From a virus, in the IMG/VR virus record IMGVR_UViG_3300007960_000095, positions 1 through 32,615 of that record: DNA of 32,615 nt. One strand, written 5' to 3'. Below the pieces are notes generated by a model. The model ran no database searches, had not been told where the DNA came from, and was given only the letters and a program-made list of their open reading frames with translations. The translations under genes and the position numbers were made by a program. This document shows, one piece after another, positions 527 through 20,775 of this stretch (the first letter of the stretch is position 1; each line of letters opens with the position of its first letter).

Positions 527-571
527 CTTGACTATGTATAATGTATTTTGTATACTGTAATCATAGTCAAG
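527..571 (+). promoter_or_regulatory. Promoter/operator P1 (shared dyad element, copy 1)
   Basis: The -35 box TTGACT is at 528-533 and the -10 box TATACT at 551-556, with a 17-base spacer. The element shares GCTTGAC, the spacer core TATAAT-TAT and TATACTGTAATCATAG with three minus-strand copies upstream of other small genes. In this copy a perfect 10-bp inverted repeat, CTTGACTATG (527-536) and CATAGTCAAG (562-571), also brackets the promoter. The conservation beyond the -35 and -10 boxes suggests binding by a common regulator. Confidence 0.8.
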
Positions 572-590
572 TAACAAACGGAGTGTAGTC

Positions 591-899
591 ATGTTTTCAT
601 TTACATCAGTCGAAGCTTATGAAATAATTAACGAAGTTTACCGAGTTTTCAATAGTATGCTATTAGAAATTGAAAACGACAATACGATTGAATGGATCGA
701 TTGTCACGATACTGAACGCTGGTTACACTGCTACATTCACAACAATAAGGATGAATTAAAATTCTATTTTATCGCAGGTGATGAAATAATCGCCAGTGGT
801 AATTTTGAGGAAACTCAAGAGGAACTCCACTACATGCAACAATTATTTACCATCGGATACAGTTGGGAATATGGGGCGGTTAAGGTGTCGATTGCGTAA
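591..899 (+). CDS. Unknown 102-aa protein under promoter P1
   Basis: Not recognised. It starts MFSFTSVEAYEIINEV and is acidic, with many aromatic residues in its second half (WLHCYIHNN, FYFIAGDEII). There is no signal peptide or membrane segment. The start is supported by ACGGAG (578-583) about seven bases upstream and by promoter P1. Its 3' end overlaps the 5' strand of the first tRNA-like element. The leader, AACAAACGGAG, resembles the leaders of two other genes that carry the same promoter (12,419 and 20,115), which suggests a common regulon. Confidence 0.65.
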   Translation: MFSFTSVEAYEIINEVYRVFNSMLLEIENDNTIEWIDCHDTERWLHCYIHNNKDELKFYFIAGDEIIASGNFEETQEELHYMQQLFTIGYSWEYGAVKVSIA

Positions 900-937
900 A
901 GATACGTAAGACGGCGGTTCGATTCCGCCACGCTCCA
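873..937 (+). ncRNA. tRNA-like element 1 (intact T arm, no normal D arm)
   Basis: The T arm is perfect: stem GGCGG (913-917), loop TTCGATT, stem CCGCC (925-929). The acceptor strand ACGCTCC (930-936) is followed by A937. It pairs with GGGGCGG (873-879) at six of seven positions, one of them G-U. Between them there is no room for a D arm. Instead there is one long hairpin: GTC (887-889) with GAC (910-912), and TGCGT (893-897) with ACGTA (904-908) around a six-base loop. No CCA is encoded. The 5' strand overlaps the end of the preceding gene. It may be a degenerate tRNA or a tRNA mimic; a normal tRNA is unlikely. Confidence 0.45.
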
Positions 938-940
938 CAT

Positions 941-1018
941 GGGGTACAGTCAAGGTGACACGATAGGATAAAGCCGAAGCGCACCCTATCGGAACGGGTT
1001 CGAGTCCGGTGTACTCCA
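941..1018 (+). ncRNA. tRNA-like element 2 (full acceptor and T arm, odd D and anticodon arms)
   Basis: GGGGTAC (941-947) pairs with GTACTCC (1011-1017) over all seven positions, one of them G-U, with discriminator A1018. The T loop TTCGAGT (999-1005) is canonical, with one mismatch in the T stem. The D-arm position holds GTCA-AGG-TGAC (949-959), a stem with only a three-base loop. The anticodon position holds a seven-bp stem, CGATAGG (961-967) with CCTATCG (985-991), around a 17-base loop instead of seven. It lies three bases after element 1, so the two are probably co-transcribed from P1. No anticodon can be assigned. Confidence 0.5.
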
Positions 1019-1045
1019 CTTTGTTAATAATGATAGGAGATAATA

Positions 1046-1219
1046 ATGATACCACAACTTGAAATTACAATCTTGTCACTTGAGCAAGCGCGTGATGCAC
1101 TCAAGGATTTTTCTAAAATTGCACCGTCAGGAACGCATCGGCAAATTATTCAGTCTATTTATGAGATAGACCGCACTATTTCACAGTTAAGAATTATTGA
1201 GGGTAGTGATAATGAGTAA
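1046..1219 (+). CDS. Small unknown 57-aa protein
   Basis: Starts MIPQLEITILSLEQARD and ends IIEGSDNE. TAGGAGA (1034-1040) sits about six bases before the ATG. The C-terminal half is predicted helical. It overlaps the next gene by eight bases (ATGAGTAA), a common sign of translational coupling. It is the first gene of a three-gene plus-strand cluster. Function not recognised. Confidence 0.6.
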   Translation: MIPQLEITILSLEQARDALKDFSKIAPSGTHRQIIQSIYEIDRTISQLRIIEGSDNE

Positions 1220-1808
1220 TCCACCTGAACAATGGCAGTCGATTATAGCGCATCTTGATTCAATTCAAGGTGACGTTACATCTGACGTTGAAACGATCAT
1301 TGAATCGATTAGTGAGACTCAAGACATATCACGCTGGATTATAGGCGACGCACTCCGCTATGTTGGCACAAATTCGCATAATTTAGACTATTTTAGCAAA
1401 TTAGCGCGAGTAGAGGTATCAACACTGCGTAGTTATCTTACAACAGCTAAAACATTCTTACCAGAACTCAGATGGTCATTATTGGAAGATTATCCATCAT
1501 TGAGCTTCGCAATATTCAAAGAATGCAATAGCGTCGCGTCGGAGTTTGGGCTAGATACTGCGATTGACCTGCTTAAACGTGCCGGTGATAATCTCTATAC
1601 AGTGAAAGAATTAAAGTTTTATATCGCCACTGAGTTAAAAAAACAGGATAAAAAAGAGTTTGAATTGATAGCAGATAGTTTCGGATTGACGTGGGTAGAC
1701 GCTCAAAATGAAACGTTGAACATTGAACTCGGTGATGAACTTGCTTTATTACTTGAAATTGGTAAATCATATCGAATTAAAATTTATGAGGAAAATGATC
1801 ATGTATGA
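1212..1808 (+). CDS. Possible DNA-binding protein (ParB-like helical pattern), 198 aa
   Basis: The ATG at 1212 is chosen over a TTG at 1197 because GAGGG (1199-1203) is well placed and the start overlaps the previous stop. Residues about 38-140 follow a pattern I associate with ParB/KorB-like helical DNA-binding regions: an S-R-W-I-I-G-D-A-L segment, then a variable segment with STLRSYLTTAKTF, then the SLSFAIFKEC block, then a YTVKELKFYI helix. The C-terminus is acidic. The assignment rests on the pattern only. The stop overlaps the start of the next gene by eight bases. Confidence 0.45.
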   Translation: MSNPPEQWQSIIAHLDSIQGDVTSDVETIIESISETQDISRWIIGDALRYVGTNSHNLDYFSKLARVEVSTLRSYLTTAKTFLPELRWSLLEDYPSLSFAIFKECNSVASEFGLDTAIDLLKRAGDNLYTVKELKFYIATELKKQDKKEFELIADSFGLTWVDAQNETLNIELGDELALLLEIGKSYRIKIYEENDHV

Positions 1809-1995
1809 TAATTATGTTGTTGAATTTTATCAGAAGTTACACGATCTTTGGTTAAGTGGAGATTTAGCTGATGATGATTACATCGTTTTTTTTAGACGTG
1901 CTGTATATCGATCTCAAGTTTGGGCATGGATAGAATCATGGCAAAATATCCGTAATCAAGGGATGTTTGAGGATGTTCAGTTGTTGATGGATTAA
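1801..1995 (+). CDS. Small unknown 64-aa protein
   Basis: Starts MYDNYVVEFYQKLHDLW; acidic and rich in Trp and Tyr. AGGA (1789-1792) favours the ATG at 1801 over the ATG at 1795, which would be too close. It overlaps the preceding stop by eight bases and is the last gene of the plus-strand cluster, directly followed by the bidirectional terminator. Function not recognised. Confidence 0.6.
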   Translation: MYDNYVVEFYQKLHDLWLSGDLADDDYIVFFRRAVYRSQVWAWIESWQNIRNQGMFEDVQLLMD

Positions 1996-2012
1996 TTAGC
2001 ACTCAAAATAAA

Positions 2013-2046
2013 ATAAAAAAAAGACCGCCCGTTAAGGCGGTTTTTT
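2013..2046. terminator. Bidirectional intrinsic terminator
   Basis: ACCGCC (2024-2029) pairs with GGCGGT (2036-2041). T6 follows on the plus strand and an A8 run precedes it, which gives a U tract on the minus strand too. It lies between convergent gene clusters ending at 1995 (plus) and 2050 (minus), so it can stop both. Confidence 0.9.
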
Positions 2047-2049
2047 AGT

Positions 2050-2370
2050 TTATTCAGTTTTCTTTTGATTTTCTGCTACAAAATCCTGTAGTAATTTCAA
2101 CGTTTTGTTATCTAAATCACTAGGTGTACGCTCCGTTAACGGACTGGCGACTTCGATTAAATCACGTATGATTTCACGCTTCGATGGTGGGAGTGTTTTA
2201 AACATACCTGTTACATATAAATCAAGTGGGCTATCGTCATATAAATCAATGACATTACTCAGGATGTTATCATCGCCTGAATACCACCAAAATAACGTAA
2301 CGATTGCGCCAATAGCAATTCCGATTATATAGATTCCTGTTGGGAGTCCTAAGATCTCAGATGGCATCAT
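2050..2370 (-). CDS. Small single-pass membrane protein, 106 aa, end of late operon
   Basis: Residues about 8-30 (GLPTGIYIIGIAIGAIVTLF) form one hydrophobic segment near the N-terminus. The rest is a charged soluble tail with a KREIIRDLIEVASPL helix. AGAGGA before the ATG supports the start. It is the last minus-strand gene before the terminator. Position after the tail genes would suit a lysis accessory or virion-associated role, but nothing in the sequence proves it. Confidence 0.6.
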   Translation of the reverse strand: MMPSEILGLPTGIYIIGIAIGAIVTLFWWYSGDDNILSNVIDLYDDSPLDLYVTGMFKTLPPSKREIIRDLIEVASPLTERTPSDLDNKTLKLLQDFVAENQKKTE

Positions 2371-2388
2371 ATTCCTCTTTTTGATTAT

Positions 2389-2922
2389 CTAAAACTTATA
2401 TTGTGCTGTAATTGAATCGATATATTGATAGATAGCTCGTAAGAATGCCGATGCGTAAATGTCTGTCATGGGTTCAGGTGGATTATCAAAATCAATCAAA
2501 TAATGCTGTTTGCATAATCGTTTAATATACGTTGACAAAAACGAATTAGTATATATGTCGATTAATGGTCGTACATGACTATATGCTGTTATAGCATCTA
2601 TAATTGAATCTGAATTTAAATCAATGGCGCGTTGTTGCCATATAGGTGCGATTAGATGCAACGACTCTCGTGATCGTTTAATCTCATTTGCAATTTGATC
2701 TTCTGCTAATTTTGAGAGTTGAGCGTCTGTTAATGTAGTGGAGTGATTTGAAACAACTCCTTCAATTGCAGTAATGATAGAAGAGCTGTCATCTTCTAAA
2801 ATAGCATATACATCATTACCCATTGTTTTTAGCCCTCGAAACGCTTCAACGGCTTGAAGTTCAAGGTTCAGCTTTTGCATATTAAATAAATCAACTGTTC
2901 CGATATGCAATTCTGTATTCAT
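2389..2922 (-). CDS. Unknown 177-aa protein next to tail fibre
   Basis: Starts MNTELHIGTVDLFNMQKLN. Largely helical by composition, with no signal peptide or clear membrane segment. The C-terminal half is rich in Tyr and Ile. It begins three bases after the tail fibre gene ends, so it is probably co-translated. It could be a fibre chaperone or a tail accessory protein, on position alone. Confidence 0.55.
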   Translation of the reverse strand: MNTELHIGTVDLFNMQKLNLELQAVEAFRGLKTMGNDVYAILEDDSSSIITAIEGVVSNHSTTLTDAQLSKLAEDQIANEIKRSRESLHLIAPIWQQRAIDLNSDSIIDAITAYSHVRPLIDIYTNSFLSTYIKRLCKQHYLIDFDNPPEPMTDIYASAFLRAIYQYIDSITAQYKF

Positions 2923-2925
2923 TGT

Positions 2926-4761
2926 TTAAGCCTCGTATGCATAAAATAAGCCTTCATCGGCTTCGTATAAATTCACAGGTGTTATCGCATTTTTTGTATA
3001 AAATGCTAAATCAATTGTATGTGTACCCGCACCTAAATTCATAGGTATTAAGAAGTTTGCAGGTGTCCCTGACCGATTATTATTATCTGATAAACTATTA
3101 ACCGCACCTGAATAGTAAGTGCTAGAAATTAGTACACCTATAAAATTATTATTATTATTATTACTATTTTGTGTTAATCTTGAGCCAACAAAACCGACGA
3201 AAACGCGTCCGCCTGTTGTGGTGATTGACAATCTTAAATTAGTGGTATCTATTGCTGTAGGCGATGTGCTAGTTGTTGAGTATGATGTAGTAGCCGTCGT
3301 AGTTTCAACATAATTTAAGCTACCACCACTACCGCCTCCAATATCCTCCCACGTCGCGCCGGTGTAACGTCTAAACGACGGATTTCCACTACTGGTATTT
3401 GTACCATCATCTAAATAAATATCATTCGACGATGGCGTAGTAGGTTCTGCACTTCGTTCAGTTATATTTAATGGTGGAATAGTTGTAGAATCAGGTAGGG
3501 TTAATCGGTCATTGTCATCTATTAACACGCCTGAATTTTGTATTGAATCGCCGCCCGTACCATCAAATCTAACAATAGCATTATCGGTAGAAGATGCAGG
3601 AGTAGTTATAGTACTCGCTAGATCTGCCACACTTTGCACTGTAACAGTTTTTAAATTGTCAGAGTCGTCTGTATCTTGAATGAGGATTTTATCATCCGTC
3701 GCAACTGTAGCTGATGTAATGATAGCGCCACTTAAATCCTCTTGCGCATCTAAGTTTGCTCTCGCTCCTGAGGCATTCGTTGAACCTGTACCACCTTTTA
3801 CAACAGATAGTGTGCCACCGATATTATCTAGTGTTAAATCTGATTCTGATACATCTATATCTATCTCATTATTAGCTGAATCGTCTGTAACAGATATTTT
3901 AGTTGAACCAGCGTTAATGTTCCTGAATTGTAAATCTACTCCGACTTTACCATCAAAAACGCCTACCCCATCGATACCAATATTTGATGCGGTATTAGCT
4001 TCACCACGATTTATTCGATAAATATCAGGTAGGGATGTAATATGTTCCTGTTTGATAGTCGTCACGCCATTAATTAGGCGTATATATCCGGTTATGGCGT
4101 TATTATCGTCAGGTTGTGGATACAGGCTATTAGATGCAATCAGTCGATTACTATACGATGCCGGGAATGCACTAGATTGTTTATAGCTGATGACATTAGT
4201 CACTGGGTTAATCTGGACTAATACAACTATAGCGGTTTGAGGTGTCGATGGGGGCTGTATTGCGACGGCACTTGTATCGTCTGTACTACCGTCAATTAAA
4301 TTCCCTGTAGTTTGGTCGGATGTTAAATAAACAATTCCATTAACGACATAATACGTGCCAATATATTGCACATTATTGGAATCGTTCGCAATTAATCCAC
4401 CATCTAAGATTTGATTACGGTAGACGGGCGTTTGATCGTTTATATTCACGCCGTCAATGTATTCTGAGTTTTCAGGAGCGAATCCAACAATCTTAAATCG
4501 TCCGGTTTCAGTGTAACCAACTTCGACTAATGAACGTGGTAAAAGCTCAGTTAATCCGACTCGGTTTTCAGCAGTATAGGCACTGTTAGGTGTATCACCT
4601 ATACCATGAATATAAACTAGTCCTTTTTTATCTGTAGAATCAACTTTAACCTTATAACCCTGCGCTGGGTCTCCTAGACGTGCGACGAATGTTTTCGCAA
4701 TTTGTACGCCTAAGGTTTTTGGTAGAATCTCGTCAATTTGTATCTGTGGCTTTTTAATCAT
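2926..4761 (-). CDS. Tail fibre / receptor-binding protein, 611 aa
   Basis: The N-terminal ~200 residues look like an attachment region. Residues about 322-338 carry LSVVKGGTGSTNASGARANL, a motif typical of phage tail fibres. This is followed by low-complexity Thr/Ser/Asp-rich shaft sequence and an IVRFDGTGGDSIQNSG repeat-like block. The C-terminal ~150 residues (after GGGSGGSLNYVETTT) read as a beta-rich head domain with an Asn run. Located at the distal end of the tail module, as expected for the host-recognition protein. It overlaps the upstream gene by four bases. Confidence 0.8.
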   Translation of the reverse strand: MIKKPQIQIDEILPKTLGVQIAKTFVARLGDPAQGYKVKVDSTDKKGLVYIHGIGDTPNSAYTAENRVGLTELLPRSLVEVGYTETGRFKIVGFAPENSEYIDGVNINDQTPVYRNQILDGGLIANDSNNVQYIGTYYVVNGIVYLTSDQTTGNLIDGSTDDTSAVAIQPPSTPQTAIVVLVQINPVTNVISYKQSSAFPASYSNRLIASNSLYPQPDDNNAITGYIRLINGVTTIKQEHITSLPDIYRINRGEANTASNIGIDGVGVFDGKVGVDLQFRNINAGSTKISVTDDSANNEIDIDVSESDLTLDNIGGTLSVVKGGTGSTNASGARANLDAQEDLSGAIITSATVATDDKILIQDTDDSDNLKTVTVQSVADLASTITTPASSTDNAIVRFDGTGGDSIQNSGVLIDDNDRLTLPDSTTIPPLNITERSAEPTTPSSNDIYLDDGTNTSSGNPSFRRYTGATWEDIGGGSGGSLNYVETTTATTSYSTTSTSPTAIDTTNLRLSITTTGGRVFVGFVGSRLTQNSNNNNNNFIGVLISSTYYSGAVNSLSDNNNRSGTPANFLIPMNLGAGTHTIDLAFYTKNAITPVNLYEADEGLFYAYEA

Positions 4762-5138
4762 ACGACAATGAGTACCTGTTTAATTGTGCCGATTGCACCC
4801 CATACGACGGCAAGATTCCCCGTTTTATCACTAACAGTTGTACCACCGTCAACAGATAAATCTAGCGCGCCAACTCCTGCGAATATTAACGCATCTCCGA
4901 TACGCTTTACTGTACGATAGTTAGTTGTTCCGTTATTCGTCCATGATGTTGCTGTATTGCTTGAACTATAATAACGTGGTGTTGTGCCGTCAGTCGCCAT
5001 TAATTCTATTTGTGTAGAATCGGAGATGTCAATTCCTAAACCGTAAGGCAATTCAGGGATATAATCAGTCGTCGGACTAACATCCGTCCATGTATCTGTT
5101 GCTGTAAATGTAGTTACTTTGTAGAGAACACGCGCCAT
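4758..5138 (-). CDS. Probable minor virion protein, 126 aa
   Basis: Starts MARVLYKVTTFTATDTW. Thr/Ser/Gly-rich and beta-type in composition, with no membrane segment. It sits between the large tail protein and the fibre, overlapping each by one to four bases, so it is tightly coupled to tail assembly. Specific function not recognised. Confidence 0.6.
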   Translation of the reverse strand: MARVLYKVTTFTATDTWTDVSPTTDYIPELPYGLGIDISDSTQIELMATDGTTPRYYSSSNTATSWTNNGTTNYRTVKRIGDALIFAGVGALDLSVDGGTTVSDKTGNLAVVWGAIGTIKQVLIVV

Positions 5139-8100
5139 TATTGTAGTCCTACGATGCTAATATTATCAACATATCCGAATGTATTGGCAGTGGTAAACCC
5201 TGAACCGCCAACGACGGATATACGGCATCGGATACGCTTCACATTCGATTGATTAAAGAATCTATCTACAGTTTGCCATGATAATTTAGCTGCATCATTA
5301 GCAGCTGTGGCATATGACGCAAGTAGATTATCCGATACATCATATAAAAGTATACTGCGTGATAAAACATTACTGACGGGTTGTGTATAGTAATATTGAA
5401 ATGATACCTGTTTGACTATAATTTCACTTGTCAGGGTTATATCTACATTTACATTTAATCCCCTAAATACGCCCGCTTGAACAAACGCCGCTTTAATACT
5501 AGGCGCTGTATTACCAAATGATGCATCAGGAAAAACTATAGGATCAATCGCTGTACGCCCTGAATCGATACTGGTAGTAATCTCGTAATCTACCGTTGAA
5601 GCTGTTGTCATATCTAGGTCATATTGAACACTAGATAATGATGATGATGATGATGTAACGTATAATGTTGTATTGCCGTCACCTGTAATCATGTAGTTAG
5701 GTGCGCCAAGTCCAGCAGGGCTATTTGTAAGGCGTGTAAATAACCCGTTAGCAACCGTTGCGATATATACGCCGTATTCACTTGTGCTATTAGGTGCCGT
5801 TACGACTTGATTCACCCCTGTAATATATAACCCAATATCGCTATTATCATTGTCAGTATCAGTTATTGCATCACCAACGCGAGTCGCGCTTGTCCAACTA
5901 TCACCACCATCTAATGACCGTCCGAACAATACACCTGTTTGATCGTGCCATGCAGATACAACTAGCGTCGTTGTCGTACTACTACATGCAATCCTAGCAG
6001 ATGTTAATGTGCTTGAATCATTCATCGTGTAGCTTGTGAGTAATTCAGCTTCAAAGTTTGACGCTTTTATATCATATAACCGATAGATAGATAATGTAGT
6101 ACTATCGGCACTCACTACATAAATAGATAGCGGTTCACTGAGATCGTAGCCTGAAGTGAAAAATGCACTATTGTAATCATAACAAACATCACAAACATGC
6201 CCTAAAAATAAATCATCTAAGCTCGTCCATATCGGGCTACTATCTGTAAAATTTTGAGTAATTGCTAGGTTGCCATTCGTATTGTTGGCAATAGCAACGT
6301 TTGGCAATATGCTAAAATCATCATTTGAAGGTGTATAATCGATTCCAAGTTCAGTTACCCAACCGCCGGAAACGACCGTCGCGCCGCTGCCAATAATCCA
6401 CTCGTCAGCTTGTTGTCCAAAAGTTTCCTCTTTAAGCGTGACTTGTATACTTAATGTCTGATTCTCATTATCCCAATTACGATTTACACGTTGAGCTATA
6501 AAGCGTGTGTTATTCCAACCGTTACCACTCGGATCGTAATCAGAAGATAAATTAAGTCGAAACCATATCATATATACAGGATCGATGATATTGATATTCC
6601 GATTGAGATTAATGCTGATTGTATCAGGACTTTGTAAATCAGCTGCAAGATGCCCTACGGTTTCCAGTACTGTCGTTTTGCCGTTAGTAGCATCTACAGT
6701 AAAATCAGGTAGTACAGTTTCACCTGCACCCTGTGACCATCGCTTTACACCATACCACGCTTTAACGCCACTCGCTCCTCCACCACTATAAGCAAACGCG
6801 CCCGCCCGAATATCGGAATAAGGCACTAATACACTGCGATTATATTCTAATGGTGGTAGAATGTCATCGGCACTAAATGTCATACCGATTGAGATAGCGT
6901 TACGAGTTGCATTGTCTAGATAGTTTGGGTTGCGTCTCAATACGAGTGTACCATCAGATGCGCTCCCGACGTTTCCTAATATCGCACTCGCTGCGACATC
7001 TAAACCACTTGCAATCGTTTTGCCGTTATACTCATAGCTATATTTACGTGGTGTTGTAATTGCACCTGTATCAATATCGTGCATACTAAATAGATTTTGA
7101 CATTGCCAACGGTTATACTGTAATGCGCCCTGAGGATTACTTATATCGCTGTTGACTTCCGTCCAATTGCTAGGGTTAGATACTTCGGTAATCAATTGAG
7201 CCGGAATAAATACCCGTTGAAGGTACATATATGGAGATACCGCCGTTATACTTGCTTGCCCGTAATCCCCATTATGACTATATTGATATTCAGTTACATA
7301 ACCAACAAATATATCAACATCTACGCCCGTTGTCAGATTACTACCATCATAGATACTATCATGCTGTAAATGCACATAAGCGCCGGGGTAGATTGTGTTA
7401 TCAATATTCGTACCCGTAATTGCGAATTGAATTGAACGTCCGTTTAAATCCTGAGTATCACTATTGATCGTTACAGTATACGATTCGTTTAAATCGGTAT
7501 AGTTCGTGCCGTCCGATACGAATAGATAGGTATATGCGGTATGCGTTTTGCCGTTGCTATCGGTTACGGTTAAACTGATAATGTGTTGTCCTTGCGTAGC
7601 ACTAACTTCAACTACACTATCGCTTGTTGCATAACCCGCTTCAAGGCTTACACCTGTAGGAAGTGTCCACAAATAGCTACTAATCGTTTTACTACCGAAC
7701 ACGATTGATGTATTTGTCCCTAATCGTGGCAGTGTAAAAGTCGCACTATCTCCAACTGAGATTCTAGCTGATTGACTCGTTCCAGCGTTTGCAATCGGTG
7801 GTGTATCTTCGTTTTCATCAGTATAAGCAACGTCCCATTTTTTACGGAATGAACCATTGACGATCCGGCTATAATCACCCCATAGTGGACGGTCTTTATA
7901 GATGGTAATGGTATCACTTGCGGTTATAGCTCGTTTAATGGTGGATACATAGCCACTATCACCAATTGATACAGGACTAATATATAACGTTTGCCCTGAT
8001 GTTGCTTTACGTAGTGTGCCATGAGCTACAATATCACCATTTGAATCTCGAATAATAAACCGTTGCCCAACTTCCGTATTGCTAATATCACCCGTGACGG

Positions 8101-8254
8101 TTAATGACGATGCTGGAGTTTCCGACGGAGTGTTATCAATCGTAGCAGTTGCAACAATATCAGGATTGAATATATTGAGTCGTACATTATCAATATAGTG
8201 ATGTGTACCGCGTATAAGATTTAAATCATTGGTACTGAGTGCCGATTGTGTCAT
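5138..8254 (-). CDS. Large tail-tip/baseplate protein with PKD-like domain, 1038 aa
   Basis: Residues about 150-250 hold a PKD-like domain: PPIANAGTSQ opening, YLWTLPTGVSLEAGYATSD core, and HIISLTVTDSNGKTHTAYTYL closing strands. The middle part resembles tail-tip hub proteins in composition. Residues about 640-900 contain BNR-like pieces, including GRSLDGGDSWTSATRV. The C-terminal 150 residues form a beta-rich module with a galactose-binding flavour. PKD and BNR-like modules in tail proteins usually mediate carbohydrate contact. The start is supported by AGGA just upstream, immediately downstream of a terminator-like hairpin (8261-8298). Exact role is inferred from size and position. Confidence 0.75.
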   Translation of the reverse strand: MTQSALSTNDLNLIRGTHHYIDNVRLNIFNPDIVATATIDNTPSETPASSLTVTGDISNTEVGQRFIIRDSNGDIVAHGTLRKATSGQTLYISPVSIGDSGYVSTIKRAITASDTITIYKDRPLWGDYSRIVNGSFRKKWDVAYTDENEDTPPIANAGTSQSARISVGDSATFTLPRLGTNTSIVFGSKTISSYLWTLPTGVSLEAGYATSDSVVEVSATQGQHIISLTVTDSNGKTHTAYTYLFVSDGTNYTDLNESYTVTINSDTQDLNGRSIQFAITGTNIDNTIYPGAYVHLQHDSIYDGSNLTTGVDVDIFVGYVTEYQYSHNGDYGQASITAVSPYMYLQRVFIPAQLITEVSNPSNWTEVNSDISNPQGALQYNRWQCQNLFSMHDIDTGAITTPRKYSYEYNGKTIASGLDVAASAILGNVGSASDGTLVLRRNPNYLDNATRNAISIGMTFSADDILPPLEYNRSVLVPYSDIRAGAFAYSGGGASGVKAWYGVKRWSQGAGETVLPDFTVDATNGKTTVLETVGHLAADLQSPDTISINLNRNINIIDPVYMIWFRLNLSSDYDPSGNGWNNTRFIAQRVNRNWDNENQTLSIQVTLKEETFGQQADEWIIGSGATVVSGGWVTELGIDYTPSNDDFSILPNVAIANNTNGNLAITQNFTDSSPIWTSLDDLFLGHVCDVCYDYNSAFFTSGYDLSEPLSIYVVSADSTTLSIYRLYDIKASNFEAELLTSYTMNDSSTLTSARIACSSTTTTLVVSAWHDQTGVLFGRSLDGGDSWTSATRVGDAITDTDNDNSDIGLYITGVNQVVTAPNSTSEYGVYIATVANGLFTRLTNSPAGLGAPNYMITGDGNTTLYVTSSSSSLSSVQYDLDMTTASTVDYEITTSIDSGRTAIDPIVFPDASFGNTAPSIKAAFVQAGVFRGLNVNVDITLTSEIIVKQVSFQYYYTQPVSNVLSRSILLYDVSDNLLASYATAANDAAKLSWQTVDRFFNQSNVKRIRCRISVVGGSGFTTANTFGYVDNISIVGLQ

Positions 8255-8365: not shown

Positions 8366-8392
8366 TAAAAATAAAAAAGCCCTTTCGGGCTT
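8366..8392 (-). terminator. Terminator of the 107-aa gene
   Basis: On the minus strand AGCCC-GAAA-GGGCT (8391-8378) is followed by a T-rich tract, TTTTTATTTTTATTG. It starts three bases after the stop codon of the small gene at 8395-8718. Confidence 0.9.
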
Positions 8393-8394
8393 GA

Positions 8395-8718
8395 TTATTT
8401 TACTTGACCATGTGCTTTTAACGTTGAGATAGCACCTTGATAAGCTGCACATTGCGGTGTTAAAAACTGATAGTCTGGTTGTTGTTTATAACCGCTCCGC
8501 GCCTGATTTAAAAACCAGTTAGTAAATTTTTCCGATTTATTTTGACTAAAGTCAAATGTATTTACTAATAGATGTCTTATTGTTTTGTGAACATATTCGT
8601 GAGCGTATTCCTTTGTAGCACCTAATTCTACATATACTCTCGCCATTTTACCGGTTCTGAAGGCATATTCTTTTAAATTAGAGTCATTTAAATAATCAAA
8701 GTTTTGAGCTGTTGTCAT
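8395..8718 (-). CDS. Unknown 107-aa protein in its own cassette (moron-like)
   Basis: Starts MTTAQNFDYLNDSN. Basic to neutral and helical (ATKEYAHEYVHKTIRHLL), with no membrane segment. It has its own dyad promoter (8762-8804) and its own terminator (8366-8392), yet lies between tail genes of the same direction. GGAGAG before the ATG is a good ribosome binding site. Function not recognised. Its arrangement matches a moron: a gene inserted between virion genes and expressed on its own. Confidence 0.65.
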   Translation of the reverse strand: MTTAQNFDYLNDSNLKEYAFRTGKMARVYVELGATKEYAHEYVHKTIRHLLVNTFDFSQNKSEKFTNWFLNQARSGYKQQPDYQFLTPQCAAYQGAISTLKAHGQVK

Positions 8719-8761
8719 GATATTCTCTCCAATATCGAATTATTAATTTGTAATTCCTTAC

Positions 8762-8842: not shown

Positions 8843-8878
8843 TAATAAAAAAAGCCCCAGTCAAAGATGACTAGGGAC
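8843..8878 (-). terminator. Terminator after the 140-aa tail gene
   Basis: On the minus strand CCCTAGTCA-TCTT-TGACTGGGG (8876-8855) pairs over nine positions, including one G-U that would be a C-A mismatch on the other strand. It is followed by CTTTTTTT. It closes the upstream tail genes before P2. A smaller perfect repeat, GCCATG/CATGGC (8881-8898), lies between it and the stop codon. Confidence 0.85.
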
Positions 8879-12396: not shown

Positions 12397-12421
12397 CAAA
12401 TAAAAAAGCCCTTGCGGGCTA
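12397..12421 (-). terminator. Terminator of the 78-aa gene
   Basis: On the minus strand AGCCC-GCAA-GGGCT (12420-12407) is followed by TTTTTTATTTG. The stop codon (12421-12419) overlaps the stem. The tape measure start lies only about 20 bases beyond. Confidence 0.9.
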
Positions 12422-12655
12422 GTTTAGACTTCGTTCATACTCCTCACATAGGAGTTGTAGTTTAATATCCTCTCGGATATTCCTTGCCCAACTAAGGGCG
12501 GTTTTAGCGTGGGTTATGCGGACTTTCCATAACCATGAGGGTTGTCCTTGAGCCCGTAGGGCTACAGCTTCGCGGTAGTAATCAGCTGCCTCGTTCATTT
12601 TTTGAACGTATTGTGCGCGGTATCCGTTAGTTTGATTGTCGTTTGCGTAGAACAT
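12419..12655 (-). CDS. Unknown 78-aa protein in its own cassette (moron-like)
   Basis: Starts MFYANDNQTNGYRAQYVQK. Helical, with several Trp and Ala (EAADYYREAVALRAQG). The promoter (12,686-12,729) and terminator are its own. The leader AATCAAACGGAGATAATA matches the leader of the 196-aa gene at 20,115 almost exactly. It splits the usual chaperone-tape measure neighbourhood, which points to later insertion. Function not recognised. Confidence 0.65.
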   Translation of the reverse strand: MFYANDNQTNGYRAQYVQKMNEAADYYREAVALRAQGQPSWLWKVRITHAKTALSWARNIREDIKLQLLCEEYERSLN

Positions 12656-12685
12656 TTTATTATCTCCGTTTGATTAATTACTTAA

Positions 12686-13479: not shown

Positions 13480-13750
13480 CTGATTTTACTTTGCTAGGTG
13501 CAATAACGCGCTTGCTACCGTTTACCTGCTTATTGACATACTCAATGAGTGGTTTCAATTCATCTTCACTCGCTTTGTATGAGACATTCGGCACACTATA
13601 CCAATAGTCATGTTGGACATTTGGCACAATCGGAACTTTGCGACGAATCTGGTTTGTGTTAAATCGCTTACCGTTGATCGTCAATTCAGGGTACTTTGTA
13701 CCCTCGCCATTACTTATACCAATGCGTTCTAAAATATTACGTTCTGTCAT
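13466..13750 (-). CDS. Unknown small tail-region protein, 94 aa
   Basis: Starts MTERNILERIGISNG. The ATG at 13750 is preferred: GAGGG lies five bases upstream. A longer form from 13762 would overlap the tube gene stop by one base. Basic, with a WYSVPNVSYKASEDEL segment; no membrane span. It lies between tube and chaperone genes. Possibly a small chaperone or tail component; not recognised. Confidence 0.6.
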   Translation of the reverse strand: MTERNILERIGISNGEGTKYPELTINGKRFNTNQIRRKVPIVPNVQHDYWYSVPNVSYKASEDELKPLIEYVNKQVNGSKRVIAPSKVKSDDAS

Positions 13751-13761
13751 GTTAACCCTCA

Positions 13762-14643
13762 TTATACGCTACGGATAGGCAATGCCATTTGATAAAATGC
13801 CGCCCAATTGTCACCATCTGAACCTGCCGCGCTAATTGTAACTTGTCCAGTCGTGACATTAAATGAGCTAGGCGCTGTTACAGTACCATTGAGTGAAAAC
13901 ACATTATCAGTTTTACCGTCAGTTACGGCACTAGATGCCGGCACAAACTCAACTTCGAATGTCGTTTCAGTACCATCTGCAATCCATGTTGTGAGTGCAT
14001 ATGGATATTCAGCTTGAATCAGTAGATGGTCAGTTTTATTACCAGCGAATCCCTCATTGCTACCAAACGCCGTACCCCATGCGTGTTTGCTACTCATAGC
14101 AGGTGTAATTGTCACGGTGGTAGGTTGTGGATTCTCTCCGGCTGTTACATTGCCGCCTGTTTCACGAATGAACGCTTGAGCGTGTGGAATAACATAAGTA
14201 CGATATTCCGTATCACCATCTGCACCACTTGAACGCTCTTGTGCGGCAACAGTGAACATTACACCAATATCATTAGGTGATTGTGCATTATTATTGGGGC
14301 TTGTGATGGTTGCGTTTGCGATTGTGGTAGTATCAAGGTTCGAACCTTTAAGCATGTTATACAGCGTTAAATCGCTAGATGCGAGTTCAATGTCGAATGA
14401 TTCAAGCGGGTCAATACCCATGAATGCACTACCTAAAAAGCGTGAACCGCCAAACGTGGCACGGCGGTAATTGACGGTAGGAAGTCCTGCGACAGTTGCC
14501 TCTCCAATAAAAGCAAGCGCGTGACTGATTGTGTCGCCTGTTTCCGTTGCGTCCGGGTCGAGTTGCCCGTATGGAATTCCTGTAGCTGATACGCGCCAAA
14601 AAAATACACTTACTAGATTGTATGTATTACTACGGTTTGCCAT
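13762..14643 (-). CDS. Major tail tube protein, 293 aa
   Basis: Starts MANRSNTYNLVSVFF. Beta-rich with Ser, Thr and Gly. It contains SFDIELASSDLTLYNML and a C-terminal Ig-like stretch from ATTWIADGTETTFEVEF-like strands to DNWAAFYQMALPIRS. It lies two genes after the connector proteins and just before the frameshifted chaperone, the standard place for the tube protein in siphoviruses. Likely highly expressed. The fold cannot be proven from sequence alone. Confidence 0.75.
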   Translation of the reverse strand: MANRSNTYNLVSVFFWRVSATGIPYGQLDPDATETGDTISHALAFIGEATVAGLPTVNYRRATFGGSRFLGSAFMGIDPLESFDIELASSDLTLYNMLKGSNLDTTTIANATITSPNNNAQSPNDIGVMFTVAAQERSSGADGDTEYRTYVIPHAQAFIRETGGNVTAGENPQPTTVTITPAMSSKHAWGTAFGSNEGFAGNKTDHLLIQAEYPYALTTWIADGTETTFEVEFVPASSAVTDGKTDNVFSLNGTVTAPSSFNVTTGQVTISAAGSDGDNWAAFYQMALPIRSV

Positions 14644-14644
14644 G

Positions 14645-15133
14645 TTATATATACCTCGTATATGTGACTTGTAATGTCCATGATTTGCTTACAAAAACGG
14701 GCGCGTTTTGCACCTGTGGATAATTGCGTGGTTGTATTGCTGTAAATGCCGTTAACATGGCATTCCGAACGCCTTTTAAATTCGTGCCGTTATAAATCAT
14801 TGGCGCGTATGTTGTGAAGGTGTTTTCAATTGCAGTATGAAGAGCGTCAATTCGTGAAATATCTATATTGAGTTCAGCTTGTCCCGTCCATTCTTGCATG
14901 TACAACGTGATATTATATGTCGCTGTAGGTTTGATATATCGTTCACCTAGACTATTGTTATCATACGTGCCGTTTCCATCGGTTATAATAATCGCAGGGA
15001 GATTCGCACGTTGTAATGCCATTGGTGCAATATCAAATACGGTTATGCTAGGTGTGAACCCACTTATTGTTGTATCAGCTAGTAACATATTTTTAATGCG
15101 TGTACGAATGTCGGACGTCGTGACTTGTGCCAT
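14645..15133 (-). CDS. Probable tail terminator / tail completion protein, 162 aa
   Basis: Starts MAQVTTSDIRTRIKNMLL. A short N-terminal helix and central beta strands (PAIIITDGNG, TYNITLYMQEW) match the tail-terminator pattern (lambda gpU type). It ends one base before the tube gene starts, the typical order. Overlaps the connector gene by one base. Confidence 0.6.
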   Translation of the reverse strand: MAQVTTSDIRTRIKNMLLADTTISGFTPSITVFDIAPMALQRANLPAIIITDGNGTYDNNSLGERYIKPTATYNITLYMQEWTGQAELNIDISRIDALHTAIENTFTTYAPMIYNGTNLKGVRNAMLTAFTAIQPRNYPQVQNAPVFVSKSWTLQVTYTRYI

Positions 15134-15990
15134 TAGATAACCGTTTCAAATATCGGTTTAACATACGAGAATAGCGACTTTTGAACTATTGAAGGGTAGT
15201 TAATCCCTGCAACAGTACCATCTTGGAATTGTACAGTATTAATCTCAGTTTGACGTGAAATATATAACCATGACGCTAGTCTAGTGCAAGATAGTTTGAT
15301 CGTTTCCGGTATAGCCCACACTTCGACATCAGGTGTATTATTATGTTGAACGGCAGTGCTACCATTCACACCACGTCGGACCGTCAACGTATTACTTGTT
15401 ATTCCTGTAACTTGCATAAACTCTGATTCAATTCGGATATAGTCTAGCGTCTCAATACCGCTTGCATCTTGTACGTTAATACTCGTAGTCGTGGCATTAC
15501 CGATTGCGCCCTGTGTATCAGTTACAACCGCCCATGCGTTTTCATACGATAGATGCGAATATCCGAATATACCATTGACGGTAAATACAGGATTAAAGTT
15601 GTTACTATCGGTATATGAAAAATTCACATCTTTAGCAAACTCAATATAGCGATATGGACAACCCGTTAAGCTGTTCAATGTATCACGTAACCGATAAGAT
15701 TCACTACTGATCGTTGTATTATCGGTATCGGCTATAGATGTAATGACAAGTGTATCGTCTGGCAGTTCCTGAACCCATCGAGGGCTTATTAAATAGTCAA
15801 CTTTTGCGCTTGTATGGATATATGGCACGAATGTACGATAGCACCATTGACTAATCATGACGCTGGCTTGACGAATATAGCGCGTGATAGTGCTTTTGTC
15901 GTTTGTTAAATCTGCGCCACTCGTCAATGGTTTCAACTGACGGTTAACTTCCTCGTATGTTGTATAATCCGATGGGTATAAGCTATACAT
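15133..15990 (-). CDS. Head-tail connector (adaptor) protein with inserted beta domain, 285 aa
   Basis: The N-terminal helices (ITRYIRQASVMISQWC) and C-terminal helix (KLSCTRLASWLYISRQ) match the HK97 gp6-like adaptor pattern. Between them, residues about 135-225 are a beta-rich insert with GIETLDYIRIESEFMQVTGI and TVRRGVNGSTA. The adaptor ring binds under the portal. The insert is larger than in typical members. Confidence 0.7.
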   Translation of the reverse strand: MYSLYPSDYTTYEEVNRQLKPLTSGADLTNDKSTITRYIRQASVMISQWCYRTFVPYIHTSAKVDYLISPRWVQELPDDTLVITSIADTDNTTISSESYRLRDTLNSLTGCPYRYIEFAKDVNFSYTDSNNFNPVFTVNGIFGYSHLSYENAWAVVTDTQGAIGNATTTSINVQDASGIETLDYIRIESEFMQVTGITSNTLTVRRGVNGSTAVQHNNTPDVEVWAIPETIKLSCTRLASWLYISRQTEINTVQFQDGTVAGINYPSIVQKSLFSYVKPIFETVI

Positions 15991-16465
15991 TTGAACTCAC
16001 AATCTCGAAAAATTGACGATTGGCAAAATCACCAGCTTCAGCAAGAATCGGATTATATTTAATCCATCCCGTATTAGTATGTCCGAGTACTTGCCTTTCA
16101 CCACCAACATATTTAGCAGCAGGGAATGTACTATACAATGTAACTCGATATTCATTACCCGTTTGGTCAATATCAACATTCCAAGAATTGGCATAACCAC
16201 CATTTCGGACGTATCCATAACCATCAGTTGGCACAAGTCCATTATTGACGAGATAGAAATAGTACCGTCGTGATTTTGCCGTTGCAAATTGGAATGGATG
16301 TTTAGCGCGTGAATCTGGATATTCACGTAAACGCGGTATATATATTTGTTCTAATTCGATAGCGGTATTGAGCATTGCATTACTGAAAACATCACCTATA
16401 TCAGCGATATTTTGTTGAATATCCTCAATGCCACTAAAATCGAATACCGCGTTATAGAATGTCAT
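15983..16465 (-). CDS. Neck protein of HK97 gp10-like type, 160 aa
   Basis: An N-terminal helix is followed by the block PFQFATAKSRRYYFYLVNNG and the end AAKYVGGERQVLGHTNTGW, which recurs in gp10-like neck/minor tail proteins. It overlaps the connector by eight bases and the preceding gene by one. The likely role is joining head and tail. Confidence 0.65.
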   Translation of the reverse strand: MTFYNAVFDFSGIEDIQQNIADIGDVFSNAMLNTAIELEQIYIPRLREYPDSRAKHPFQFATAKSRRYYFYLVNNGLVPTDGYGYVRNGGYANSWNVDIDQTGNEYRVTLYSTFPAAKYVGGERQVLGHTNTGWIKYNPILAEAGDFANRQFFEIVSSNV

Positions 16466-16785
16466 TATTCACCTGCTAGATAAGCGCGAACATCTGCGAT
16501 ACCAATTTTATTAATGCCCAGTGATTCAAAGTGTTCAATAACTTCCTCAAGTATGCCGTTTTCAATAGCCAATTCACGCGCTAGAGCTGTTATGTCTACG
16601 GTTATTGACTCTCGTTGTTCGATCTCAGGTTCTTCAATGTCGTTTGTCGAAATCGCATCAGCTATACCAACATTAAGCAGATATTCGCCTAGTCCATGCA
16701 ATTTAGGATCGCGAATGTCATAAATCGCAGGTTGTACGGTTTTACCGTGTACGTTTTGATAGAATCGTCTCACTAAAATTTGCAT
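16465..16785 (-). CDS. Unknown head-region protein, 106 aa
   Basis: Starts MQILVRRFYQNVHGKTV. The segment HGLGEYLLNVGIADAI resembles the small proteins often found between capsid and connector genes. The C-terminal part is acidic and helical with an ESLGINKIGIADVRAYL end. It may be a head accessory protein; not proven. Confidence 0.55.
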   Translation of the reverse strand: MQILVRRFYQNVHGKTVQPAIYDIRDPKLHGLGEYLLNVGIADAISTNDIEEPEIEQRESITVDITALARELAIENGILEEVIEHFESLGINKIGIADVRAYLAGE

Positions 16786-16793
16786 ATTGTCAC

Positions 16794-17150
16794 CTATACA
16801 GGAATATACTGAATTTGAATTGTAACCGTCCCGGCGTTATCGCCACTTGCGATAGTTACAAGTAAGTCAGTCTCTACAAAATAATGCTCATATAATCCGA
16901 CGGACGTATTGACATTATTGACAAGCGATTCACGAACAGGATAGATATTATCACCCGTTGCCGTTTGTGTGATATTTAGGATTGTACGCCCTAGTCCGCC
17001 CTGTTCAGCAATCAGGATAGTAGGGTTATTCGTTTGACCATCTTTATTCACTAAAATATCAGTGATAAACCCTGTAATTGATTCTGTCAGGGCTTGAATC
17101 GCTTCACCACTAGCATCTAGTGTGATGGTTTCGCGTGCTGTATATGCCAT
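16794..17150 (-). CDS. Unknown probable virion protein, 118 aa
   Basis: Starts MAYTARETITLDASGEAI. Beta-rich, with IITDILVNKDG-like strands and a NAGTVTIQIQYIPV end. Located right after the capsid genes, where decoration or head-completion proteins are encoded. Not recognised further. Confidence 0.5.
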   Translation of the reverse strand: MAYTARETITLDASGEAIQALTESITGFITDILVNKDGQTNNPTILIAEQGGLGRTILNITQTATGDNIYPVRESLVNNVNTSVGLYEHYFVETDLLVTIASGDNAGTVTIQIQYIPV

Positions 17151-17566
17151 TATATATCGAATCCGTCAAACATAACGAATACAACAATATTCGCGTCGGC
17201 AGTTGTTGGAGATAAACTTCCATCGGATGTATAAGTTACGCCGATTTTATCACCTGCTACGAATGGCTCATTGCCGTATGGGATCGTTGCATAAAATTCA
17301 GTCGTTGTTGCCGCGTCGGTTTCGATTGTAAGCGTGGTTGAACCGTTGACTTCAATATCAAATTCAAGACTACCAGCTGCAACAGCGGCACTTAATTGAA
17401 TTGCATAACCTACGATTGAACCATTTAAGGGCATCGCGTAAGTTGCTGTTAAACCACCTGCGATTGCTGTATCAGTATCTGTTTGTGTAGCTTGCATATT
17501 CGCCTGTTCAAACACAAACGGAATAATGGGGCTAGTTGTACCTGCACGGTTTTGTAATTTACTCAT
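17150..17566 (-). CDS. Probable capsid decoration or accessory protein, 138 aa
   Basis: The ATG at 17566 (MSKLQNRAG) is chosen because AGGAAA lies seven bases upstream; a longer start at 17578 lacks a site. Beta-rich and Ala/Thr-rich (AAVAAGSLEFDIEVNGS). It is the first gene after the capsid, the usual site of decoration proteins. Inferred from position and composition. Confidence 0.5.
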   Translation of the reverse strand: MSKLQNRAGTTSPIIPFVFEQANMQATQTDTDTAIAGGLTATYAMPLNGSIVGYAIQLSAAVAAGSLEFDIEVNGSTTLTIETDAATTTEFYATIPYGNEPFVAGDKIGVTYTSDGSLSPTTADANIVVFVMFDGFDI

Positions 17567-17622
17567 GGGTTTCCTCATGTAAAAGGGCGGATTATACCGC
17601 CCTGATAATTAACTAGTTGAAA

Positions 17623-19998
17623 CTATACGCCGATGTTGTACAGGACGGAAACACTATCATTGTCTTGACCAACGAAGGCAAGACGCAATGTGCTTGTAAG
17701 TGTCCAAACGTCCAATGCTGCACGGTATTCAAGCGTTGTGGTAACACGACGACGATACCCTACATACCATGACGGACGGTGTACAATCGCAAGACGACCA
17801 CGCTCAACGACATTACCGCCGTTTGTGATTTTACCGTCGCTGTCTGCGAGTGCGATTTCATTTGATACGAATACCGGAATGCCGTCAATAATACCGATTT
17901 GACCGGTCATATTAGTGGCGCGTGTGCCTGCCTTATCCATTGTGATAAATTCATCCATATTCAGGAGTTTAGCTTCAACTTCTGGATGAACGATGATTGC
18001 GAGGTTAGATACCGATTGCTTGCTACGATCAAGTTTAAAGCGAACGTTACGAATCGCTGCAAGTGTTGGGTTCGTACCACTCGCGTCTACCGCGTTTGTG
18101 GTTGCGGTTACAATCGCATTTTTGAGCAAGCCGTTAAACACTAGATATTTAGCAGTTGCAGCAGGAGTACCACCGTCATCGTTAATATTCAATGATGTTG
18201 CGGTATCACCATTAGCAAGGACGTTATCAATCGCGTCTAACATTGCACGCTCAGCTTGGGCACGGTACATTGGAATCGCACCACTAACTGAATCTTCTGC
18301 TAATTCGCCACTGATGAATGTCAATAATCCGAGTTTAGCAGCCGTCATAGTGACATTGGTAGTTGCGATTTTGCTATCTGGAATAGGTGAAGCGGTCAAG
18401 TCAAGTGTATTTTGGTCAGCTGTTTCAGCTACTTTGTAGACGGTAGGGTCACTTGATTCAATCGGCAAAATGTACGGATTCGTCGGCATATCAATGACGT
18501 TGAACAATGGCAAAATTACATTGTCACGACGCGCTTTACGCCAAATTTCATCACGCCAAGCGGTTGGTACATGTTCGTCACCGTAACCCGCTTGAGTGCT
18601 GTACATAACTTCATCGGCTTTAATTGCATTAACCGATTTAATCACGCCGGGAGTCAATTCGATTTCGCCATTATTATGAGCTTTGGTAGCTTTATCAGCA
18701 AATTCACGATAGAATTTATCATCCATCTCGAATGGTAAGCTCGCACTCTTACGGGTTAAGTGCTGTTGAAGATCAGCTGCAAAGCTAAAATCTTCAGGAG
18801 TCCAATTTGAGAACTTACTAGAGATTTCAATACGTGGAGCTGAATGGCTACCTGAACCAGCTTTAGATTTACCGCGTACTTTTTCAAAAGCGCCGTTAAA
18901 CGCCTTATCAAGCTGTGCATCGGTCTTAGCTTTAGCTTGTAGACGTGAATCGATGATAGCAGGTAATTTATCGATGAGTGCCGTCAAGGCTTTTGCTTGA
19001 ACGTCCTCTTCATCGGTAGCTTGCATTTTTCCAGCTTCACTAACGAGTTCGACTTCAATTTCTTGCATATCAGCTTCGCTCATATTGTCCATTTCAGCTT
19101 TGACGCGTTCGACGACCATATTCACGATTTGTGCAATTTCATCTTCTGTCAACATTTTGACATTTTTTTCTGTAGGCATGGTTTGAGATTCCTCATTATT
19201 AGAGTGATTAATTGAATTACGTTTAACCCCGTCGGGTAAATCCTCAGAATCGTTTGTTGGAATCTCAGGCACTTTATGCCCATCGGCATCTTCTACCCCT
19301 ATATCATCAAACGAGTCTAATATTGATTTCGTCGAATATATTTTAGTGCGGTTTGGATCGGCAGGTGTATGCGTTGCGCTACCTTCAAAGATTGCCCACT
19401 TTTTGATATGACCATCTTCATCTATCTCTGCCGTGTTTGGGTTCGCACCACTAGAGAAGGCTATTTTCCCCTCATTCACCCAACCTTTAATAAACTCTAC
19501 CGCTTTTTGATAGTCGTCAATCGATACTGGCGCTTGTTTATCTTGATACCACTGATTGACGAATTTTTCATATTGATCTCGCTCACGTATAAGCGCCTCT
19601 ACCCATAACCCGTGATTATCAACTTCAGCTTTGACAAATTCACCAATAGGAATATCACGAAGTCGTTTATCAAGCCCGTGATGGAATAATAACGGTAAAC
19701 CAACGATATTATGAGGAGTGGATAAATCCGTATCTTGAGTAAAATATTCGTTGTCAAGATCGCGATTATCAGTATCTGTGAAGTTAACTAGATACCCGCC
19801 GATGCGATTATCTCCCAGTGATTTAATATTGCTACCATAGCAATATTTTAATGATTTTGTATTCTCATTTTCCATAATTGCAACCATATGATTATTTGCC
19901 GATTGTCGTGTATCGTGACATCCACCTTTGATTAAGTCGCCGGTTTCGATGTTTTGTATACAATAGAGATTTTCACGTTTAATAATGTGATAGGGCAT
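17623..19998 (-). CDS. Fused prohead protease and major capsid protein, 791 aa
   Basis: Residues 1-45 hold a small YCIQNIETGD...GCHDTRQSAN domain. About 60-225 is an HK97-type prohead serine protease: LFHHG (His106/107), FSSGA (Ser182/183) and the EGSATHTPADP block. Residues about 230-273 are linker. About 275-365 is a helical scaffold (delta) region. About 390-791 is the HK97-fold capsid, with a TAWRDEIWRKARRDNV helix and a VERGRLAIVHRPSWYVG end. Fusions let the protease cut the delta domain and mature the head. A possible internal ATG at 19179 (MPTEKNVK), with GAGGAA about 11 bases upstream, could give a separate capsid protein. Confidence 0.9.
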   Translation of the reverse strand: MPYHIIKRENLYCIQNIETGDLIKGGCHDTRQSANNHMVAIMENENTKSLKYCYGSNIKSLGDNRIGGYLVNFTDTDNRDLDNEYFTQDTDLSTPHNIVGLPLLFHHGLDKRLRDIPIGEFVKAEVDNHGLWVEALIRERDQYEKFVNQWYQDKQAPVSIDDYQKAVEFIKGWVNEGKIAFSSGANPNTAEIDEDGHIKKWAIFEGSATHTPADPNRTKIYSTKSILDSFDDIGVEDADGHKVPEIPTNDSEDLPDGVKRNSINHSNNEESQTMPTEKNVKMLTEDEIAQIVNMVVERVKAEMDNMSEADMQEIEVELVSEAGKMQATDEEDVQAKALTALIDKLPAIIDSRLQAKAKTDAQLDKAFNGAFEKVRGKSKAGSGSHSAPRIEISSKFSNWTPEDFSFAADLQQHLTRKSASLPFEMDDKFYREFADKATKAHNNGEIELTPGVIKSVNAIKADEVMYSTQAGYGDEHVPTAWRDEIWRKARRDNVILPLFNVIDMPTNPYILPIESSDPTVYKVAETADQNTLDLTASPIPDSKIATTNVTMTAAKLGLLTFISGELAEDSVSGAIPMYRAQAERAMLDAIDNVLANGDTATSLNINDDGGTPAATAKYLVFNGLLKNAIVTATTNAVDASGTNPTLAAIRNVRFKLDRSKQSVSNLAIIVHPEVEAKLLNMDEFITMDKAGTRATNMTGQIGIIDGIPVFVSNEIALADSDGKITNGGNVVERGRLAIVHRPSWYVGYRRRVTTTLEYRAALDVWTLTSTLRLAFVGQDNDSVSVLYNIGV

Positions 19999-20008
19999 AT
20001 TTTGACCT

Positions 20009-20044
20009 TAAAACACAAAAGCCCTGCGGGTTCAGGGCTTTGTG
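20009..20044 (-). terminator. Terminator of the 196-aa gene
   Basis: On the minus strand AAAGCCCTG (20041-20033) pairs with CAGGGCTTT (20026-20018) and is followed by TGTGTTTT. It lies between the end of the 196-aa gene and the start of the protease-capsid fusion, so it would cut late transcription without read-through. Confidence 0.85.
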
Positions 20045-20114
20045 CTAACGGAGAGTTTTGTATATGACTACAATCTAATTGTAGCACAATTCGTTATTCT
20101 GTCAAACGATTCTA

Positions 20115-20705
20115 TTATTGGCTACTGATTTCGATTACGTCACCGATAACAAGATAGCCGTTGTCATCGTCAATCATAACCCAGTTATATGTGTCGGGTT
20201 GTAGGCTATAGTCATCGTCGTCGTTTTTATAATCAAAATTACGTGACGCGTATACCCGTAATTCATCGTGAATAATTTCAGTCTCAAATATCCATTGAGG
20301 CATATTGTTGGTATTGAATACGACATTAAAATATTCAATCGCGTCGGGTTCGCTCATGGTTACAGGGTCATGTCCGTCTAAAGTGATGGTTACTTCGATG
20401 GTTTCCTGCTGCGGATGTAATTCGTTGTACAGTTCTTGCGCTTTTTCTTGAGCTTCGATCAAATGCCAACCTAATTCATTAATATGTTCCTGTTTGTTTT
20501 GTTCGCAGGCATAATCGTAAGCGAATTTCAATACAATGTAACCCTTACGTGCGCGAGAGCTAATTGACTCTTCAAACTTCGTTGCTGTATCTTTTACCGC
20601 GTAAACTAATTCATCGTTATCATACACGAAGGCGTATGCCGTGCCGTCGCTCTTTGCGGTTGTTTTGACTGTAATTGTGTCTAATTGTTCGTGTGCGTTT
20701 GTCAT
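20115..20705 (-). CDS. Unknown 196-aa acidic protein in its own cassette (moron-like)
   Basis: Starts MTNAHEQLDTITVKTTAKS. The N-terminal half is mixed; the C-terminal half is strongly acidic (YKNDDDDYSL, MIDDDNGYLVIGDVIE). A helix FEESISSRARKGYIVLKFAYDYA lies in the middle. No membrane segment. It has its own dyad promoter (20,732-20,775) and terminator (20,009-20,044), placed between portal and capsid genes. ACGGAGATAATATC before the ATG matches the 78-aa gene leader. Function not recognised. Confidence 0.65.
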   Translation of the reverse strand: MTNAHEQLDTITVKTTAKSDGTAYAFVYDNDELVYAVKDTATKFEESISSRARKGYIVLKFAYDYACEQNKQEHINELGWHLIEAQEKAQELYNELHPQQETIEVTITLDGHDPVTMSEPDAIEYFNVVFNTNNMPQWIFETEIIHDELRVYASRNFDYKNDDDDYSLQPDTYNWVMIDDDNGYLVIGDVIEISSQ

Positions 20706-20731
20706 GATATTATCTCCGTTTGATTAATTAA

Positions 20732-20775
20732 CTATGATTACAGTATGCAGAATATATTATAGTATGTCAAGCATA
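20732..20775 (-). promoter_or_regulatory. Promoter/operator P4 (shared dyad element, copy 4)
   Basis: On the minus strand TTGACA (20770-20765) and CATACT (20747-20742), spacer 17 bases. GCTTGACA, a TATAATATAT spacer core and ATACTGTAATCATAG are shared with P1-P3. Confidence 0.8.

Follow-up and report, generated by a model that had tools for sequence, protein, structure and literature searches.

Four copies of a promoter-leader module, probably duplicated, before small moron-like units of a phage

The window analyzed here, a linear IMG/VR virus record taken over its whole length of 32,615 bases (40% G+C), raises the question of why nearly the same promoter sequence stands before small genes at four separate places. 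The original prediction was that one regulator probably binds all four sites. The genes for the portal, terminase, major capsid, and tape measure proteins are located on the minus strand of the window. Among the proteins scanned in the window, no integrase or repressor was recognized, and a helicase-methyltransferase is the only DNA-metabolism enzyme. The contig ends in 15-base tandem repeats (32484-32615), where the assembly probably broke. The repeat tract and the scarcity of these proteins suggest that the record is probably a fragment. At the opposite end, the C-terminal end of an apparent cytosine DNA methyltransferase is found on the plus strand (13-488) in two frames (13-393 and 129-488), likely owing to a frameshift.

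Results

Sequence and significance of the four sites

The four sites are P1 (528-566, plus strand; TTGACT-17-TATACT-GTAATCATAG), P2 (8761-8799, minus strand; TTGACA-17-TATACT-GTAAGCATAG), P3 (12686-12724, minus strand; TTGAAA-17-TATACT-GTAAGTATAG), and P4 (20732-20770, minus strand; TTGACA-17-CATACT-GTAATCATAG). All of them follow the pattern TTGA(C/A)(A/T), a 17-base spacer, and (T/C)ATACT, and then GTAA.CATAG or GTAAGTATAG, and their common sequence is ATATGCTTGACA-3 variable-TATAAT-aTAT.tTG-TATACT-GTAA.CATAGT. The spacer core TATAAT(A/G)TAT (TATAATRTAT) is present in all four sites and is conserved as well as the −10 element. The −35 element, the 17-base spacer with its core, and the downstream CATAG part are all found at the predicted places.

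P1–P4 are one family, far beyond chance. When each site was scored with a model made from the other three, P1, P2, P3, and P4 gave 44.7, 59.0, 53.4, and 51.9 bits, respectively, while no score above 14.8 bits was reached in 100 dinucleotide shuffles of the window. The motif search suggested with the original prediction thus recovers the four sites, and no fifth site is found in the 32,615-base window, the next-best score being 9.7 bits. The −35 and −10 hexamers match TTGACA-17-TATAAT, the sigma-70 type, at 10–11 of 12 positions with 17-bp spacing, and recognition by the host's sigma-70 type polymerase is proposed by analogy. A predicted promoter is located directly upstream of each unit, as in moron units.

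TATAAT in the spacer should be noted, since it is a perfect −10 hexamer in every site and could belong to a second, overlapping promoter approximately 20 bp upstream, the pair competing or giving two start sites. A plausible −35 hexamer is found for P2 (TTGTAA-16-TATAAT) and P4 (GTTACA-17-TATAAT), with 10 of 12 matches each, but no acceptable one is located at the right distance in P1 or P3, and a second promoter is therefore very improbable.

Dyad symmetry

The sites had been described as dyad promoters, with P2 as an almost perfect 15-bp inverted repeat. The 14 inner pairs around the center of P2 were counted in each site and compared with shuffles. The matched pairs are 13 in P2, a near-perfect 28-bp dyad, 11 in P3, 8 in P1, and 7 in P4, against shuffle means of 4.4–5.9. 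The description as a dyad is appropriate for P2 and P3, while the symmetry is weak and near background in P1 (p = 0.03 against shuffles) and P4 (p = 0.11). A dyad operator conserved at all sites, as a repressor regulon would have, is not observed. As for P2 itself, its outer arms (TATGCTT/AAGCATA) and inner arms (ACAGTATA/TATACTGT) differ in register by one base, and a clean 15-bp operator half is therefore not formed. Some of the symmetry is inherent, because TTGACAGTATA is similar to the reverse complement of TATACTGTAAG. The palindrome TATACT-GTA-AGTATA over the start site was also considered as an operator but was discarded, since the downstream GTATA persists where the −10 element is altered and the palindrome is absent in P1 and P4.

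Units behind the promoters

Behind each of P2, P3, and P4, on the minus strand, lies one gene that is followed by an intrinsic terminator of its own. The P2 gene (107 aa, 8395-8718) follows a leader (8719-8760) that is unlike the other three and has the ribosome site TTGGAGAG. It is closed by a terminator at 8377-8392, and another terminator (8855-8876, minus strand) is located just upstream of the unit. The P3 gene (78 aa, 12419-12655) and the P4 gene (196 aa, 20115-20705) follow leaders (12656-12685 and 20706-20731, respectively) that both contain TAATTAATCAAACGGAGATAATA. The P3-unit terminator is located at 12407-12420, and the terminator after the P4 gene at 20018-20041, with another promoter-like site between the gene and this terminator. 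The divergent P1 unit on the plus strand consists of a leader (567-590) with the ribosome site AACGGAG, a 102-aa gene (591-899), two tRNA-like RNAs (873-1018), and three further ORFs (1046-1219, 1212-1808, and 1801-1995; 1046-1995 together) before the first terminator at 2019-2046. The prediction that each promoter controls one small gene is consequently correct for P2, P3, and P4, whereas P1 heads an operon reaching to 2046. The predicted leaders of the four units are 28–46 nt long, and no RNA structure beyond that of shuffles was found in them. The matches at −35 and −10, the leaders with ribosome sites, and the terminators make the assignment of P1–P4 as putative promoters of dedicated small units well supported.

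None of the four small proteins belongs to a PHROG family, and neither Pfam, at its cut-off, nor the phage records gave a match to them. They are not convincingly alike, as had been stated for the controlled genes. For the P2 and P4 proteins, the structures modeled without relatives were too poor to be used (pLDDT 63 and 43, respectively).

The first of the two tandem RNAs in the P1 unit resembles the tRNA-like domain of tmRNA, with a score of 32.1 bits against RF00023 (E = 1.1e-11), which is below the gathering score of 47, and the 310-base message part of tmRNA is cut to 4 nt in it. A G3-U70 pair is found in both RNAs, and CCA is encoded in neither. They appear to be isolated tRNA-like domains of tmRNA, the second being more doubtful. 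Their phage matches are only mycobacteriophages, two of which are annotated as tmRNA at the matching place.

A promoter-like site, a short leader, and a terminator are also arranged just before a gene at three places on the minus strand (20105-20018, 26969-26877, and 8365-8262). The genes that follow are the capsid gene, the gene at 26348-26887, whose annotated start is in the hairpin, and the tail gene at 5138-8254, respectively. These sites resemble the pR'-tR' layout on which Q-type antitermination acts. Two of the leaders contain CTCCGTT (20053 and 26909, minus strand), the exact complement of AACGGAG of P1, P3, and P4. On the minus strand, CTCCGTT occurs only once more, opposite the ribosome site of P1 itself, and the coincidence may be due to chance.

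Likeness beyond the promoters

The likeness among P1, P3, and P4 extends from about 70 nt upstream of the promoters downstream to the start codon. An upstream block is found in P1 (486-501, plus strand; TAGAACATTAGATTAG) and P4 (20807-20822, minus strand; TAGAACACTAGATTAG), with TAGAACAYTAGATTAG common to both at 26–36 bp upstream of the −35 element, and a weaker copy is found in P3 (12751-12766, minus strand; TAGAACACAACATTAG). P1 and P3 align over 93 nt with 73% identity, and P3 and P4 over 42 nt with 83% identity across the leader and the start codon. The upstream alignments of P1 with P4 and of P3 with P4 exceed 500 of 500 shuffles, and that of P1 with P3 exceeds all but one. The leaders of P1, P3, and P4 share the ribosome site AACGGAG, and 84% likeness over 38 nt is found between the terminators of the P2 and P3 units. 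In P2, the upstream block is absent and the leader is different, so that its membership in the module rests on approximately 45 bp and the terminator.

Likeness of this extent would be expected of duplicated modules and is more than an operator would require. The original prediction reasoned from the conserved spacer and downstream sequence to one regulator. This step does not follow by itself, since the likeness reaches far outside the promoters and T4 early promoters provide a parallel: they carry an extra consensus and are read by the host polymerase (PMC2988021). We regard it as probable, from these comparisons, that P1–P4 belong to duplicated promoter-leader modules that carry promoters of the host sigma-70 type and head moron-like units. 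This interpretation is favored because of the T4 early promoters and because the promoters of Methylophilales phage Melnitz, described below, were predicted to be of the sigma-70 type. Contrarily, the spacer core conserved as well as the −10 element speaks against it. Promoter spacers are usually free to vary.

The invariant spacer core is a reason to consider a phage regulator that would bind the four sites through TATAATRTAT, perhaps with the flanks, and switch the units together while the host polymerase still reads the promoters. P2 and P3 are strongly symmetrical, and the window encodes two related winged-helix proteins (28690-29154 and 31717-32202, minus strand; 24% identity, E = 1e-6). 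However, nothing links these proteins to the sites, and no solved relative was found for the first one (28690-29154). The symmetry in P1 and P4 is weak, no dyad is common to the four sites, and none of them is followed by a regulator gene in this probable fragment. With four copies, a recent duplication explains the spacer equally well, and the likeness continues far outside any one binding site. The claim that one regulator probably binds all sites is thus reduced to a possibility that we consider unlikely, though the invariant core speaks for it.

Search for the motif in relatives and other phages

The strict pattern including the spacer signature was found among IMG/VR contigs only in L004, a fragment of the same species in which P4 is unchanged, and L004 was still the only match after the bases between the −10 element and the start site were freed. 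Searches with the terminase, the P4 protein, and the tape measure protein gave only same-species fragments (L004–L007), among which L004 alone covers a promoter site, that of P4. For the expectation that the motif precedes genes in relatives, the comparison covers only these fragments of the same species, of which L004 carries the P4 unit. No relative lacking a unit was found in these searches, and in phage records the terminase and the portal protein had only distant matches.

The looser core TTGA-N18-G.ATACTGTAA..ATAG matched at least 117 stretches, compared with 17 for a control, and this enrichment is rough because the control is one permutation of the downstream bases. Among the control matches, only one family of four contigs is promoter-like. 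The looser-core matches listed are mostly T4-like marine phages and are dominated by two groups, A and B. No relatives of the proteins in the window are encoded at any of the looser-core loci listed. The spacer is conserved within each group and differs between the groups.

Group A contigs (L008–L123, IMG/VR) are apparently marine T4-like phages, and one of them has genes for a UvsX-like recombinase and a DnaB-like helicase, like those of T4-like phages. Their spacer contains the dyad GYAAGA-NN-TCTTRC with a free center and a few shifts relative to the −35 and −10 elements, a pattern that an operator would show. No correlated changes were found in this dyad (Fisher p = 1); only symmetrical tolerance is observed. 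One group B site is identical with Methylophilales phage Melnitz over 60 bases. In Melnitz (MZ577097.1, L124–L126), the spacer TTTGTTNTNAWAACA is found in 12 of the 14 best sites. This spacer is more strictly shared than the sequence after the −10 element and does not appear in the available part of the genome paper (PMC9004378).

An unrelated contig (L009) has two promoter copies. Both precede small genes that run antisense to structural genes, and a terminator accompanies the second. The promoter families of L009 and Melnitz are comparable cases in favor of the duplicated-module interpretation. Another candidate (L153), found by the core and a ribosome site, was dropped because it has no TTGAC at the right distance. 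A text search of the literature for TATACTGTAA gave no such promoter among the titles listed. A genome scan gave nine matches, against approximately 1–2 expected by an estimate from base composition; they are mostly in Clostridia-type genomes and provide no pointer to the host.

Two further interpretations depend on these searches. Unrelated phages also contain the outer core TTGAC-N17-TATACTGTAAGTATAG, as would be expected if each unit had evolved the same strong promoter alone, with neither duplication nor a regulator. The common upstream block, leader, and terminator nevertheless need common descent or exchange, and the spacer signature is confined to its own species, which makes such convergence the most improbable of the explanations. 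The promoter families of Melnitz and group A, each with its own conserved spacer, speak for a regulator. In a wider form, the phages would share the outer promoter TTGAC-N17-TATACTGTAAGTATAG and carry their own exchangeable spacer operators, each read across the promoter family by a phage-specific regulator, with P1–P4 as one such regulon; we consider this proposal quite doubtful. A promoter frame is thus common to several groups of marine phages, each with its own spacer, and this raises the question of whether the spacers hold operators.

Discussion

Moron genes of tailed phages have their own promoter and terminator among late genes. The P2, P3, and P4 units are alike in consisting of a promoter, one small gene, and an intrinsic terminator among structural genes. 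The units here differ in sharing one promoter-leader module and in that P1 heads an operon, and the sequence does not imply lysogeny.

The mobile promoter/stem-loop (PeSL) cassettes of T4-like phages (Arbiol 2010 and Comeau 2014, as cited in PMC4503421) are a second comparison. According to the available part of that source, they are similar in that nearly identical modules of promoter and terminator recur around small genes that vary. The repeated promoter and the similar terminators are present here, while exchange of the genes is only putative. In addition, there are only four copies, and the phage is not T4-like, judging from its portal (phrog_12), terminase (phrog_2), and tape measure protein.

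As in the T4 early promoters (PMC2988021), strong −35 and −10 elements are accompanied by extra consensus positions beyond the hexamers. The consensus is another one, however: P1–P4 have TG directly before the −10 element instead of a spaced TGn, and they are only four. The Melnitz promoters, predicted as sigma-70 early promoters in the available part of the genome authors' paper (PMC9004378), share TTGAC(A/T)-17-TATA(C/A)T, a conserved phage-specific spacer, and, in one site, an identical TATACTGTAAGTATAG. In contrast, their spacer is unrelated and Melnitz is a T4-like phage; no operator is mentioned in that part of the paper.

Returning to duplicated modules as the preferred explanation, P1–P4 would be strong promoters for the host housekeeping (sigma-70 type) RNA polymerase. 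The module would comprise the promoter, the start region, and a short leader containing a ribosome site, together with the upstream block in three of the four copies. Each module would head a moron-like unit located among the late genes or next to them, driving one small gene in the case of P2, P3, and P4 and a short divergent operon in the case of P1. Transcription of the units would then need no phage factors and would not depend on the surrounding late genes, and it would take place early in infection or from the genome of a resident phage. The shared sequence may have been kept by common descent and selection for promoter strength, and it may also offer homology for swapping the genes behind the promoter.

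The window would provide a clear and testable example, outside the T4-like phages, of small genes that are unlike each other but stand behind copies of one promoter-leader module. With a repeated module of this kind, phages may be able to acquire new genes and express them.
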